A stretch of DNA of 64,000 nt from Ianthella basta. Lineage: Eukaryota > Porifera > Demospongiae > Verongiida > Ianthellidae. Below, in pieces: positions 8,048 to 48,859 of the stretch. The stretch lies in assembly GCA_964019415.1 (NCBI GenBank), contig OZ025889.1, positions 3,602,078 through 3,666,077 on the forward strand, written 5' to 3'. Position 1 is the stretch's first letter. Every line of letters begins with the position of its first letter. Position numbers and translations under genes: made by a program. The notes beneath the pieces are model-generated. The model was given only the letters and a program-made list of their open reading frames with translations. It was not told the origin of the DNA and made no database searches.

Positions 8048-8565
8048 CTGCAGTATGACTGTCTTTCCTTGAGGTTTCCTTTAACTTAATGCTCCACTGT
8101 GTAATAGCCTTTACTTGTTTCTGTCCTTTTTATGCCATCCCTACATCCTTACAATTATTGTAGAAAATTTTTATTATTTCTAGTTTCTGTACTTTTTATA
8201 GTGGGCAGCTAAGCTTAAGCAACACACAGTCACTTAATCTCAACCATAGGGCATTGGTGCAGGCATTATACCTCATTTCTGTTATCCTAGAACTCAAGGT
8301 TTGGGCTAGCACCTAGGTTCCGCGTTAACCCAGCGAGGAACGGCGACCGGAAGCCAACCGTGGCTGGGAAATGCACGCACGACCGCGAAAGTCTTTCAAA
8401 CGGCGCGCAAGCTAACTGCTGCAGCTGCTAATAATGGCACCAGTCACTCCGGTTTCATCCGGTGTAATTACGTAATTTGAAAAAGGCGTCCGTCCCGCTT
8501 GGCCATAGCCTCGCGTAGCCAGTCTTTCGACATTTCCCACGTTTCGTCTTCTTCTTCTTCTTCTT

Positions 8566-8801
8566 CTTCTTTGACAGCCGTAGCGCACGAACCAGAGGGA
8601 CCAGGAGAATACTTCATCCACAATATTGCACCATTTTTGGCTGGCTGCATTCCTTTGTAGGTTAGAAGGCGGCGCGAGTTAGTGCGGAAGACGGCGCTTG
8701 CCACGACTCCTGCAGAATGCAGCCAGCCAAAAATGGTGCAGTATTGTGGATGAAGTATTCTCCTGGTCCCTATGGTTCGTGCGCTACGGCTGTCAAAGAA
8801 G
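8566..8801. repeat. Large foldback, 87-bp arms
   Basis: Arms 8566-8652 and 8715-8801 are inverted copies that differ at about two positions, separated by a 62-bp spacer. The surrounding 8300-8960 is unusually CpG-rich compared with the AT-rich neighbourhood. A TTC/GAA microsatellite (about 8546-8570) abuts the left arm. No gene is seen inside. It is probably a MITE or other foldback transposon, or the core of a larger palindromic element. Confidence 0.85.
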
Positions 8802-8959
8802 AATAAGGGCTCTGGTTTCATGTACCGCAGGCACGCTAGGTATTGCGCAAGTGGCCGGCAACCGCAGCCGCTGGACGACGACGCGCCGATGACGCGCAAC
8901 CCCTAGGAAACCGCCAGTTGCGCAAGGGGCATGACGCGAGGTTGGGGAAGCGCATGACG

Positions 8960-41676: not shown

Positions 41677-42685
41677 AGTTAGTTTCACGCACAGAACCAG
41701 ATTGTGCTTGGGGATTAGCTGAAGAACCAGACTCTCTAGCTTCTTGGGCAGTACTAGCTTAAGTATTACAGGTAGCTAGCCCATAACGTGTGCTATCTTG
41801 AGTTTAATCTGTACACATCCCGTGCAATTTCCTTTCACACATGCACACCCATGCTGACCCATCCACCCACACCAGCTCATGCACCTCCCACTCCTTCTCA
41901 CATAACTATTATGGTGCAAGTTGTATTATTATATTAATCTACAGTAATTAATTCTTGTATGATAATTGTATATAGCTATAGCTATAGCTATGCATGCATA
42001 ATAGCTAGCTAATTAGCTACAATAGCTATAAATAGAGGGTGGGGGTGGGGGAGGCTCTGCCCCCTAACTGAAAGCCCCATAGAATCTACTTGCACCCTTA
42101 AAAATAGCTATGTAGCTAGCTACTTGGCTAGCTAGCTATACAATTATGTTATGAACAGTGGTGGCGGAACATGGTTGGGTTTGGGGGGGCTGCTTATAGC
42201 TACTGGCAAAGCCAATCATACATGTGCCCATTATATTCAAGATACAGCCCCCTAGCCCCCCCCCCCCCCCCCCCCACCTACCGCCGCTACCGCCGCCCTA
42301 CGTTAGCTATGAATGAAAATGTTCCTTCACACATGCACATAGCTACAGGCATCACTGTCAGGGATTGCATTGTTATATACATGCAAAGCATTGTTCCCTG
42401 TATGTTGTCACTGCCACATGGGTACATGTGTACAGCCATAGCTATAGAGTTAGCTGAATTCTTCCAGAATCTGTAGGAAAAAATAAGTAGCAAATTGAAT
42501 TCAAGTGAATTCAGCTTAAAGTATCATTAGCTTGTGCTGGTATGTAGTGATTTCGTTCAGAAAACCCGGAGGAATGATAACACGATTATGTATAGCCAGC
42601 ATAGGGAAAACACACAAAGAGCTACGCCATTGTCTTGATTGCGCAATCTAGTTTTGTACGCGTGCGAAACACCCGTGAGCTACGT

Positions 42686-42776
42686 AGTCTCGTCCCCAGC
42701 CCACTTCCGGCCGCCATTTTGCAATGGCCCGAAAAGGTGGTCTGGCGACTATGGTCGACTTTCTTGGGCCTGGAAG
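42686..42776 (+). repeat. Left terminal inverted repeat, 91 bp
   Basis: Starts AGTCTCGTCCCCAGCCC and contains GCCGCCATTTTG (42710-42721), a match to the YY1 site. It ends 59 bp before the preferred start codon of the DUF6589-type gene. Confidence 0.95.
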
Positions 42777-42835
42777 CCAGTCTCGATTACGTAACACTGG
42801 TGGGAGCACCGAGGTGTGGAATTTGTACGGGCAAG

Positions 42836-45800
42836 ATGGCGGTGCAACGCTGTGCGGTGTGTTCCTGCAGCGTGGCAAATCCTTCTTTTCGCAGGCGAAT
42901 AGAAAGTAGCCCTCAGGTTCTCGCCTTTGCCAAGTCGGTCGGGCTTCGACTTGCAGAAACTGAAAGTAGCAACCAGTACGTGTGTCGAACGTGCTTTTCC
43001 AAGCTGGAGAAAGGCAGCAAGGCGGAGGGGACACTCCGATCTACTGTTCAAGACATTCTACGTTGTGCTGGACAGCCGCATGACGTTTCTGTCTCAATCA
43101 GGAGCATAAGCTGCGATCAAGGTACCCAAACACAAACGGATCGCGAGGAAGAGCAGCGCGACAGTAACCAAGGTGAACAACTAGCCAGCTACGCAGCTGA
43201 CTAGGGCCTTTAATCAAATAGCTATAAAATAGCTAACTACGACTCGCACCTTTGTGCTTGCTGTGGTTTCTTCATATAGACAGCAAGACTCCTAGTCCTC
43301 GCAAAAAGAGAAGACTGCAGGACAGAGGTGTGTTCCTCACACCACCAGGTAGCAAGAAGAGGTGTCACAGAAAAAAGCTTTTCCAAGACAGTCCCATGGT
43401 GCAGGTTAGTAAAAAAGTTAGCAGCCCTTTCTGCCGTAAACATCTGACTGTGGTGTAATAAACAGCCTCTATGCATTAATGCATTTAGGTAGCTGTAACT
43501 GCTAAAGGCAAAGTGAGGCGATTTCGTGTTCAGAGCAAGTATAAGAGACTGGTGATGTCTACTCGCTACAACAAATCTCCCTATACTGCACGTGTTATGC
43601 TTCGCAATAGCCCTCTAAGAAGACCAGTTGTGAGAAGCATTTGCAGCATCATTCGAAGGGAGGTCCACCAACTTTGTTCAATGAAGTATGGAGCATCTGT
43701 CCTTCGCGGTACTTCATCAGCAGCCCTCACTTCATTTTCATGGAGACCAGTTGTAATAGAACTAAAAGCTCGTGCTCCTGTTCTATATGATGTTCTCAAG
43801 GCTGTGATTGCAAGACCAAAGAAATCAACAGATGCTAGTGCCATTGGCATCGCAGCAGCTGTCATGCTGAAAGCCAGAAACAGGTTCTTCTCATTTCCAC
43901 AAGCTGTGACGTCAGTTCTTCTGTATGCTGGTCATTGCTCCAAGCAGGTTAGTGTGTCAAAATGTGTTTGTGAATAATACTTTGCTATTAATGTTAATTA
44001 TGCTATTTGTTTTAAATCTATCCAATAGGTATTTCATAGACTCAATCGTATTGGTCTATGTCTGAGCCACCGACAAACACTGAGGGTTGTTAGACAATTA
44101 GGAAATGATCATGATAGGGTGNNNNNNNNNNNNNNNNNNNNNNNNNNNNNNNNNNNNNNNNNNNNNNNNNNNNNNNNNNNNNNNNNNNNNNNNNNNNNNN
44201 NNNNNNNNNNNNNNNNNNNNNNNNNNNNNNNNNNNNNNNNNNNNNNNNNNNNNNNNNNNNNNNNNNNNNNNNNNNNNNNNNNNNNNNNNNNNNNNNNNNN
44301 NNNNNNNNNNNNNNNNNNNNNGGTAAAGCAATGGAAGAGTGCACAGGAGTCAACTGGCTCTACAACCGAACCAAACTTGGAGGTCACTGAGAATATCAGC
44401 AATTGGGAGGGTGAGAATGCAACAACTGAAGATGAGTCATTCTCCTCAACAGGTTAGGGGACAATTAAATGCATGATGTTGTCATTTATAGTTATATAAT
44501 TTTTTGTAACATTGTGCAGAGGAAGAGAATCACACTGCCACATCGGATTCGGATTCAAGTGAATCTCGAGATCTGTTCACTTCCAGGCCCATGGTGGCTA
44601 ACACAAGTCAACAGCTGCAGTCATTTTCCTACACCATTGTAGGAGACAATGTTGACAAGACTGTTTCACCACGCTGTATGACCACTGACCATCAGCGTCA
44701 GAGTCTACATTATTTCCATATGTATTGTGCAATGGATCGCATTGATTTTCGTCACCTGACAAATGATAAGCCAATTGCAGATGTATCCAGTCTCCCACTG
44801 TCAACCTTCCTTCCAAACTTGGAGGACAGCTCTGCTCTGCGTTCCAACTATGCTGTCCTGTTGGGTCGTGAAGTGGTGCAATCGCTTCCCTTCTTCAAGG
44901 ACTTTGGTGAATACGTTCCAAGCCACATTCCTCATAAGTACAGTACAGAAATGAGCAGAAAGTCCACTGTGGTAAGTTGAAAAAACACTTATACGAATAT
45001 TATATGCAAAGAACATCATCTATATAGAATGATATATAATGTTAGATGCATGCATGTGTATGCTTGCACATGCAGGTGCCTTTGGGTGTTATACCTAACA
45101 ATGAGCAAGTCACTGATGAGATGGTGTCAATTCTGGAGCATCTGCACCAGTACGTCCCTGTTGTGAAACATGGAGACTGCGCGGAGACGTATTCACCAAT
45201 TGCCTTTGGTGGAGATCAACTCACAGCAGCCAGAGCTCTGACAGCAAAGAAAGTGCGAGTTACCAGCCATGGTAAGGCAGCTTTGCGAGGACTTGTACCC
45301 TACTGTGCAGATTGGCATGCAAAGGTTAACTTCATTCAGGTTAGTGCCATGTAGGCATAATTATGCATAATTAGTATGAATTTAAATAAACATTAGTTTC
45401 AATGTATTGTTGGTTACATCACCTTTACAGATCATGTGGCTTCGGCTGTATAAGGGAGGATCTAGCATGGAAGGAGGGACCCTACAACAGCTGCGAAACT
45501 TAATTGGACGTCGCAACATTGGCTCGGAGACTGATGTCAAGGGACATGTCAATGAGATTGAAGACTTCCTTGAACTTGTTATCAGGTGCCACCTGATAGA
45601 AGCGACCCTACACTTTTTTGCCATGCGCAACACAACTGATACACCACATGCCAACACCTTCCCTCCTGGCTTTGCGTCTCTTCCATTTCACAAAAGGAAA
45701 GAGCTATTTTTTGATCGACTGCTTCGTATTATTGATAGATATGTCATTCCCAAGCAGTTCCTTCTGGAGCAGTCACAACAGCTACAGCAACCATCACCAG

Positions 45801-46633
45801 AAGATGTCCATAGGAATCCCCACTTCCAGCGTGTCACTCATGAGCACATGTATGGTGTAGCTCCTCCCCCCCCAGGGACAGCAACACGTCATCTGCCATC
45901 GACAATCCAAGAAGCACTAGATCGTCCAGAGGCTCCTCAATCCATCCAATGCACATCCGTGGATGGAGTCTTTGCATATGCATCTGCCGTTTTGAATGAT
46001 GGGCTCCTACTACTGGAGTTCAAAGATGCCATTAGAGAGGGAGATGGCCAACGAATTCTACGCTGCTGGAAAGCTTTTTTGCTTTATTTTCATTTTGCAA
46101 GGCATCATAACTATGCCAATGAAGCTGTAAGGATGCTGTCTGCTGTCTATGCATTGGCAACACCAAGGGTTGCTGCTCAGATAACCTGGAGCCGTGTGAT
46201 CAACACAAGGGGCCTTGCTGGGCATAACATCCCAGTTGACTTACACAATGAGCACCTCAATAGAGCCTTGAAGCAAGCTGTTTCAGGCCTGGGTGCAAAC
46301 ATTGCCAAGCAAACCATTCTGCAGTGTGGTCGAAGCCTAGATGGTCTCCTTAAAGTCAACAAGTCATTTGACGAAGAGCATGGCATACACCCTGTTTCCT
46401 TGGAGCACAGTTCACCATCATTGGCTAAAGATCAAAAGCTAATTATGGATCAACTTTCACGTTCCCGCGTATTTGACTATGTTCCAGGACGTGATCATCG
46501 GTCATTCCACGGAATCAAGCCCAATGCTGCACAGAAGGTGGACCTGACAAAGCTGTCAGAATGGATACGGCAGAAACAATCTGCCCTGCAAGCAGAACAG
46601 AACGTATCTAGGCTGTTCAAGCATCACTGTTAA
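42836..46633 (+). CDS. DUF6589-type protein, putative transposase of the TIR element
   Basis: Exons 42836-43172, 43280-43404, 43489-43947, 44029 to beyond 44121, a gap, an exon ending 44452, then 44520-44971, 45076-45339 and 45431-46633, all in phase outside the gap (about 1000-1090 residues). The start is the Met just before a zinc-finger-like CAVCSCSV...YVCRTC. The C-terminal part has the marks I associate with DUF6589: GDQLTAARAL, DWHAKVNFIQ, a long helical stretch, and a late His/Asn-rich region (NTRGLAGHNIPVDLHNEH). No biochemical function is known to me for DUF6589; its position with a helicase between perfect TIRs suggests the recombinase. Acidic motifs (HGDCAE, GGDQ, HNEHLN) could hold catalytic residues. 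Confidence 0.8.
44122..44321. other. Assembly gap (200 N)
   Basis: 200 consecutive N inside the DUF6589-type gene; the real length is unknown. Apparent frames through it mean nothing. Confidence 1.
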
Positions 46634-46658
46634 TTCCAACAAATTAACCTTAAAATAG

Positions 46659-47921
46659 TCAGTGATTAGATACAATCTTGAACATCTCAGCAGCTTGGCT
46701 ATGTGATAATCCACAAGATAGAAAACTGTCCACAGAATTGTATTTCCATTTGTTCTTTACGATATCATCAATAATAACATCAGTTATACCAGTAACTACT
46801 TCAATACCAAATAAAGGAGGGCAACTTTTATCATCAACTAGAGAGAGTCGAAAAGCTTCCAATGAAGCTTTTAAAGCTCGTTGTGCACTTGACCCAAGCT
46901 GATGTTGGGTTACTGCTGGGATGACTGGTGGAACAAGTTCCGGATCTGCTTCTGTCAACAGTAATGCTTGTACATCAAGGCAGTCATCACATTTGCATGT
47001 GCGGGAACACACATCACAGCATTTGTGGCAAGGATTGGGCTTGATGAAGTTGCCACCATCATACTCAGCCAGCAGCATTTCCCGCCTGCACTTGCTCTCA
47101 TTCAAGCAGTATGCTTTGCTGTCATCTGAGGGAGGATGATAGCCGCTGAAATCTGACCGGGAGAAGTATAGCATCGCTGTGGAATCTTGCCCATCACGTC
47201 CACATCTTCCGCTCTCCTGCAAGTATGCATCTATCGTACTGGGAGGACCCCAGTGGATAATGCAATGAACATCAGGTACATCTATACCCATGCCAAAGGC
47301 AACCGTTGCAACAATCACCCTAAGTGAACTCAAGGGGTTGCTGAACTCTGCAAGTATCCGGCCTTTGTCATCTTCATGCGATGCACTCGTGAACATGTCA
47401 CAAGTGACATCCCCATTCACAAACAGAGCATCACTCTTCCCAAGCTCATCAGCAAGGCATTCGTGGACATGCACTGCATCATCATATGTCCGACAAAAGA
47501 TAATGCATTTTTCGGCGTTTTTACCATGCTGACAAAGACCATGAACCAGTGGCTGCAGAGCAATGCGGACATCATCAGGCTTCACCCGAACAGTATATCT
47601 AATGTTGAGCTTGTTGGGCACTTTCAACACTACACTGCAATCTAACATGCATAAGCTCTTCTGGATAACCTTGCGGGTTCGGCGAGAAGCTGTTGCAGTT
47701 AGTGCCATTACATTGACAGTAAAGGGAATAATGGACCGAGCCTCACCAATGTTTTGATATTCTCTCCTGAATGATGGACCCCTGCAATCAGGACACAGGA
47801 TGTGGAAAAGGATGTGTATGACCATTTCAAATAGGACGTACACTTACTTCATGACACATACAAACACCACACAGCACCTTAACATACTGCACACACCTGC
47901 ACACAAACCAACACATTCACA

Positions 47922-47975
<54 letters not shown>

Positions 47976-48558
47976 CAGGGCAATAGCTGCACACTCACCA
48001 AATGTCAATGCAGTGAGCCTCATCAACAACAAGGGCTACAAAGTTGTCCACATACACTTGGGATCGAAACATGTCTCTTACTGCCAGGTCTTCAAGAAGG
48101 TACTCTGGTGATATGTACACTAATTGGTACTCTCCAGCAATCACAGCTGCCTTGTCACACGAATCTTGTCCCAGGAATGTGCACTTTAGTCCCCGCTTGT
48201 GGAACTTATCTACCTGATCCTGCATTAGCGCGATCAGCGGACTCACAACCAAGACGATGCAGCCACAGTCTGTCCCTCCAATAATCTGCAGATGCCGCCG
48301 AAGGTTGTCAAAGATGACAGGAAGACTGGCGAAGCAGAGAGACTTGCCCGCCCCTGTTGGGAGAGAAACGAAGACGTCACGTCCCTTTATGAAGTCCAAA
48401 ATCGCCTCTTCCTGGTCTACTGTGGGCTTCTCGTAGCCGAGCATTACGAATGCTTCCAGAATAGCATTGTTCACTGTGGCCGAAGGTAGCCTTGCGGCCA
48501 ATCTTGGGATTCGCACTTCTCCCATCGAAGCTGCCGTCTCGCTGCTCGAAGCTGCCAT
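46659..48558 (-). CDS. RecQ-family DNA helicase encoded by the TIR element, 560 aa
   Basis: Two exons, 48558-47999 and 47781-46659, join in phase to rebuild DEAHCIDIWGPSFR. Helicase motifs are seen in order: motif 0 (LGYEKPTVDQEEAI), I (LPTGAGKSLCF), Ia (VVSPLIALMQDQV), II (DEAH), III (ALTATAS), IV (CIIFCRTYDDA), V (VATVAFGMGIDVPDV), VI (YLQESGRCGRDG), then a RecQ-type zinc module (CRREMLL ... CHKCCDVCSRTCKCDDC). No HRDC domain is seen. It should be an ATP-driven 3'-5' DNA unwinding enzyme. It is shorter than host RecQ proteins and lies wholly between the element's inverted repeats, so it is element cargo or part of its transposition machinery. The intron carries an (AC)n tract. A CCAAT box in its orientation lies about 95 bp upstream. 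Confidence 0.92.
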
Positions 48559-48686
48559 CTCGCTGCTAGCATAGATCTATGCTGCTAGGTAGGTATGAAC
48601 GCCAGAGGTGAATGTTATGCATAACATGCCAGTAATGAGCTGTTGTGTAATCTGATTGGCCAGCACACATTCCTGCTGGGAATGGA

Positions 48687-48777
48687 CTTCCGGGCCCAAG
48701 AAAGTCGACCATAGTCGCCAGACCACCTTTTCGGGCCATTGCAAAATGGCGGCCGGAAGTGGGCTGGGGACGAGACT
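48687..48777 (-). repeat. Right terminal inverted repeat, 91 bp
   Basis: Reverse complement of 42686-42776 with a single mismatch. It includes the mirror YY1-like site CAAAATGGCGGC (48742-48753). Confidence 0.95.
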
Positions 48778-48788
48778 AGTAGCTACGT

Positions 48789-48830
48789 AGTCTCGCTCCC
48801 GGCGGCCGGAAGTGGACTGGGAAAGAGACT
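48789..48830. repeat. 42-bp mini-foldback resembling two fused element ends
   Basis: Begins AGTCTCGCTCCC and ends GAAAGAGACT. Read from either side it resembles the first 25-30 bases of the 91-bp repeat (AGTCTC, then CCCAG..CCACTTCCGGCCGCC on the reverse strand). It directly follows the second AGCTACGT. Probably a solo remnant or an extreme deletion derivative of the same family. Confidence 0.65.
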
Positions 48831-48859
48831 ACTTTGCCTGCGAACCGACATAAGTATCA

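Follow-up and report, generated by a model that had tools for sequence, protein, structure and literature searches.

A RecQ-bearing transposon of the sponge Ianthella basta, probably of the AcademH lineage, with a DUF6589 protein as its probable DD/E transposase

We analysed a 64,000-nt stretch of the Ianthella basta genome (contig OZ025889.1, C22:3602078-3666077; hereafter the window) in which a pair of terminal inverted repeats surrounds two convergent, intron-bearing genes, one for a DUF6589 protein and one for a RecQ helicase, with 25 nt between their stop codons. The repeats, each 92 nt long and 99% complementary with one mismatch, were located by an inverted-repeat search at 42685..42776 (+ strand) and 48687..48778 (- strand), where they rank first of the window's 489 inverted pairs. 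The element has TA...TA termini, its ends begin TAGTCTCG..., and flank comparison places directly outside them the target-site duplications TGAGCTACG (42676..42684) and GTAGCTACG (48779..48787), which match at 7 of 9 positions. A run of 200 N at 44122..44321 interrupts exon 4 of the DUF6589 gene. Because an identical copy of the element on contig C13 spans this site without extra bases, the 200 N hide no sequence, the real length of the element is 5,893 bp, and the DUF6589 protein has 1,020 amino acids. The gap, lying inside a repeated element, is probably a contig break at a near-identical repeat.

The DUF6589 gene was modelled on the + strand (42836-46633) as seven exons with GT-AG introns and a single open frame. 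A CxxC...CxxC motif is visible near the N-terminus of the translation, in exon 1 (42836..43172), which is followed by exon 2 (43280..43404), exon 3 (43489..43947) and the N-containing exon 4 (44029..44452). Alignment places a candidate first catalytic Asp (GDNVD) in exon 5 (44520..44971), a candidate second Asp (GDQLT) together with DWH in exon 6 (45076..45339), and a candidate catalytic Glu (EHLNR) in exon 7 (45431..46633), which ends with the stop codon. The protein matches Pfam PF20231 (DUF6589) with an E-value of 5.6e-47 and 160.8 bits against a cut-off of 27; in its N-terminal CxxC region, the Pfam search gave no family over its cut-off. Residue conservation was assessed in a query-anchored alignment of 18 non-redundant sequences including that of the window, many of them partial. 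GDNxD is kept in 9/9 covering sequences, the second Asp and DWH in 11/11 each, and the Glu of EHxNR in 16 of the 18, and we regard D491, D646 and E961 (numbers that count 67 residues of the N gap) as a candidate D/D/E triad. A single-protein query of viral and GTDB prokaryote contigs found no relative.

On the opposite strand, the RecQ gene (48558-46659) encodes 560 amino acids in two exons (47999..48558 and 46659..47781), both supported by the gene model and by matches to relatives of solved structure. The best of these is 1oyw, E. coli RecQ (E 1.2e-43), and the next entries are named RecQ, Q1, BLM and WRN. The protein carries DEAD and Helicase_C domains and has Walker A, DEAH, ALTATA, GMGID, GRCGRDG and CCDVC motifs; it combines a superfamily 2 (SF2) helicase core with the zinc-module cysteines of RecQ helicases (CCDVC). 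When 15 RecQ loci of the genome, several of them partial, were scanned, motif I was found in 11, II in 13, III in 13, V in 11, VI in 13 and the zinc-module cysteines in 14. An earlier sequence-only reading of this DNA had proposed two convergent, intron-bearing genes within the repeats, a RecQ helicase complete with zinc module and a DUF6589-type partner, all of which our gene models, the 1oyw match, the motifs and the PF20231 score bear out. Its 91-bp repeats were right in position and in their single mismatch, but they are 92 nt long and their outer coordinates had been set one base too far inside. The N-terminal zinc-finger-like motif it described stands as CxxC...CxxC in the translation, but not as a Pfam family at cut-off, and its 6.1-kb length is ruled out once the assembly gap is discounted.

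Searching the genome (209 Mb, 96 contigs) returned at least 42 matches to the terminal repeat, with 40 of 524 candidates scored, and 53 matches to DUF6589 exon 7, four of which are stop-free at 100% (rounded). Full copies number four: the window copy, one on C13 and two on C18. Outside the N gap the C13 and window copies do not differ, over blocks of 1,437 and 4,457 bp, and blocks of the C18 copies are 98.7–99.7% identical to the window copy. The window element is a transposon, and because its identical C13 copy lies at an unrelated site, it has moved recently. One of the C18 copies is nested in an end of a kin element, and GTCCGTTAC occurs in both outer flanks of that kin element.

Among 30 repeat loci that were fetched, 23 are short elements with both ends. 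Of the remaining seven, one is the window copy, two lack a complete partner end, and the others are ends of the three further full copies and a single end of an outer kin element. The short elements, at least 23 in number, are about 780 bp long, with a mean identity of 97% and a minimum of 88%. At 94.5% and 90%, respectively, their majority sequence agrees with the left 345 bp and the right 459 bp of the window element, and they are therefore internal-deletion derivatives of a close relative. Several of these loci keep matches to approximately RecQ residues 4-91. Three sister families with DUF6589 and RecQ, whose elements measure 5.4 to 6.9 kb, are also present in the genome; in one of them, two copies at different sites share 5,391 bp at 100% identity. 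Inside the left end of one sister copy (L071, C5:5047000-5054000), positions 111-201 form a 91-bp palindromic micro-element with TCTCGTTCC on both sides.

Target-site duplications were scored in 24 elements that have both ends, 23 of them short and the other the window copy, after exclusion of two false pairings with a nearby second end. Perfect 9-bp duplications flank 19 of the 24; two match at 8/9 positions (L006 and L029), two at 7/9 (the window copy and L028), and L023 has none. The C13 copy and both full C18 copies have perfect 9-bp duplications, as do all six copies examined from the three sister families (L071 to L076).

To measure linkage between the two genes within 8 kb, the 53 DUF6589 matches were merged into 41 loci and 83 RecQ matches into 64. 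RecQ lies within this distance of 26 of the 41 DUF6589 loci, a count in which same-family copies are not independent, against a chance expectation of about 0.005 per locus, or about 0.2 of 41. Linkage extends over DUF6589 relatives at 51%, 43% and lower identity. In 19 of the linked loci the genes are convergent, and one pair is divergent; RecQ is on the same strand and upstream in three (C3:4512229 and C10:159355 show this order) and on the same strand and downstream in three (C3:977653, C6:7519852 and C6:7530990). At C3:977653 (L047) the two genes are separate reading frames and are not fused. Of 58 PF20231 matches in this genome, 57 exceed the cut-off; the same search found no match in 14 control genomes.

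Terminal inverted repeats are a feature of the AcademH lineage, and the window element has them. This lineage of Academ reportedly goes back to Kojima (2020, Mob DNA 11:15).

AcademH, which is used as a recognised label (PMC10799480), encodes a helicase and makes 9- or 10-bp duplications (PMC10045372), and a 'RecQ Helicase in Academ' is listed and credited to Kapitonov et al. (PMC3627910). The window family resembles AcademH in carrying a helicase, of the RecQ type named for Academ, alongside a transposase candidate, and its 9-bp duplications fall inside the AcademH range. AcademX belongs to the same superfamily but encodes a nuclease and makes 3- or 4-bp duplications (PMC10045372). Curated bivalve Academ elements average 5,565 bp (PMC10294476), and the window element, at 5,893 bp, is of similar size. 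The available passages of PMC12730594, PMC10294476, PMC4522978 and PMC12210899 hold no helicase detail on Academ, and no paper on an Academ transposase in a sponge was found in the open-licence PubMed Central (PMC) literature. Of the lineages met in the literature searched, AcademH alone matches the combination of a helicase with a 9-bp duplication. The window element is probably AcademH, as assigned by published descriptions and not by transposase sequence. RecQ in a DNA transposon, implied to be new by the sequence-only reading, had already been published for Academ (PMC3627910) and KolobokH (PMC9587614), as had a helicase for AcademH (PMC10045372); the window element is probably a further example of the helicase-bearing Academ/AcademH transposons already described and no new kind of transposon.

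We consider it highly likely that the locus holds an autonomous, recently mobile DNA transposon, most probably AcademH, in which DUF6589 is the DD/E transposase and RecQ the element's own assisting helicase. DUF6589 is very probably the DD/E transposase of helicase-carrying Academ-type transposons. The DUF6589 protein would recognise the 92-bp ends, cut at their TAGTCTCG... termini and join them across target cuts staggered by 9 bp, while RecQ would assist, its likeliest task being to unwind or remodel ends, gaps or the replicating donor; the internally deleted copies of about 780 bp would have been moved in trans. The ends, genes, copies, 9-bp duplications, linkage of the two genes in several families and conserved candidate D/D/E residues are observations. 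What we infer is catalysis by DUF6589, cut-and-paste over copying, mobilisation of the short copies in trans and the role of RecQ, and help by unwinding is suggested for RecQ because the linkage recurs and the helicase motifs are kept. The sequence-only reading had seen in the element an autonomous, recently active transposon with DUF6589 as recombinase and RecQ as a remodeller of DNA during excision or replication. The first part has held, through the further copies, the deletion derivatives, the 9-bp duplications and, for recent activity, the identical C13 copy; a repeat confined to this locus would have told otherwise, and it is not single, with at least 42 matches, three more full copies and the short derivatives. 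The recombinase role is probable given a candidate D/D/E conserved across relatives, and the partnership recurs within this genome at 26 of 41 loci.

Several observations weigh against this interpretation. The window copy's own target duplication is imperfect (7/9), and Academ and AcademH entered the comparison by description only, not by transposase sequence. The triad was picked by pattern, and other acidic columns are equally conserved (D865 in 15/15, D886 in 16/16 and E918 in 17/17 sequences). Two partial DUF6589 models are poor, with mean pLDDT (predicted local distance difference test) values of 57.5 for exon 5 alone and 60.7 for a 434-residue frame of a DUF6589 relative that runs from the second Asp through the Glu. 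The latter is confident around the second Asp only, where it predicts a strand at the Asp, a helix and a strand at DWH, an arrangement compatible with an RNase H core but no proof of it. A Foldseek comparison with the PDB returned nothing at E 0.001, and the short matches to Prp8 RNase H-like entries were insignificant (E 2.3–4.4). Finally, RecQ is absent within 8 kb of 15 of the 41 DUF6589 loci, one of which, C2:5203748, is a nearly complete exon-7 match with one stop. These loci would be expected if the transposon were real and RecQ a passenger without part in its movement, which we think unlikely. Many of the 15 are short or stop-bearing matches, whereas the partner is kept in diverged families, for example where DUF6589 exon 7 is 43–51% identical and the longest RecQ match 39–41%. 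The partnership also occurs in several gene orders, and among the 15 RecQ loci scanned, several of them partial, the helicase motifs are kept (I in 11; II, III and VI in 13 each).

We judge it very improbable that the element belongs to some other superfamily and acquired RecQ independently, as KolobokH exemplifies. As the window element probably does, KolobokH joins a DD/E transposase and a RecQ helicase within one transposon, and one rhodophyte Kolobok has RecQ on the complementary strand (PMC9587614). However, the window family has 9-bp duplications and TA...TA ends, whereas the duplications of Kolobok are TTAA, 4 bp long, and its ends are 5'-RR...YY-3'; in KolobokH, moreover, RecQ lies downstream of the transposase domain, and KolobokH is described as known from fungi only (PMC9587614). 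Duplication length leads us to reject KolobokH itself. That there is no transposon, and the gene pair spread by segmental duplication, has next to no likelihood: one contig does carry two full copies in opposite orientations, separated by about 43 kb, but each copy has a precise 9-bp duplication and different flanks, the short derivatives are dispersed, and the unrelated flanks and 9-bp duplications rule this out.

Two further features were observed in the window. A 44-bp palindromic micro-element at 48788-48831, whose ends are of the transposon's kind (TAGTCTCG...GAGACTA), directly adjoins the right target duplication of the transposon. Another inverted repeat, at 8560-8807, has 93-nt arms of 97% identity with 62 nt between them.

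As regards insertion sites, kin ends are unusually close to insertions. For 32 elements, with 64 flanks in all, an 8-mer from the tip of the terminal inverted repeat occurs within 100 bp in 7 flanks, compared with 4 of the 676 bins of 100 bases that extend farther out, to 1.5 kb; these elements were chosen via their ends and are related by descent. When the set was widened to six 8-mers, one of them was present within 100 bp of 11 of the 32 elements. We tentatively raise the possibility, which we hold to be rather doubtful, that these RecQ-bearing transposons favour kin ends, or sites next to them, as insertion targets and that the family thereby becomes nested within itself, as the full C18 copy and the C5 micro-element inside element ends and the 44-bp micro-element beside the window copy might suggest; an end-bound transposase might perhaps capture resident kin ends as targets.

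Pfam labels DUF6589 as being of unknown function, and a literature search limited to open-licence PMC papers found no mention of 'DUF6589', including any tie to this transposase. The transposase candidate is a clear member of PF20231, and a Pfam family without function thereby gains a probable role, that of the DD/E transposase of helicase-carrying Academ-type transposons. The role of a transposon-borne RecQ may be tested in a single sponge genome, which offers identical copies that moved recently, along with short derivatives and sister families that have diverged.

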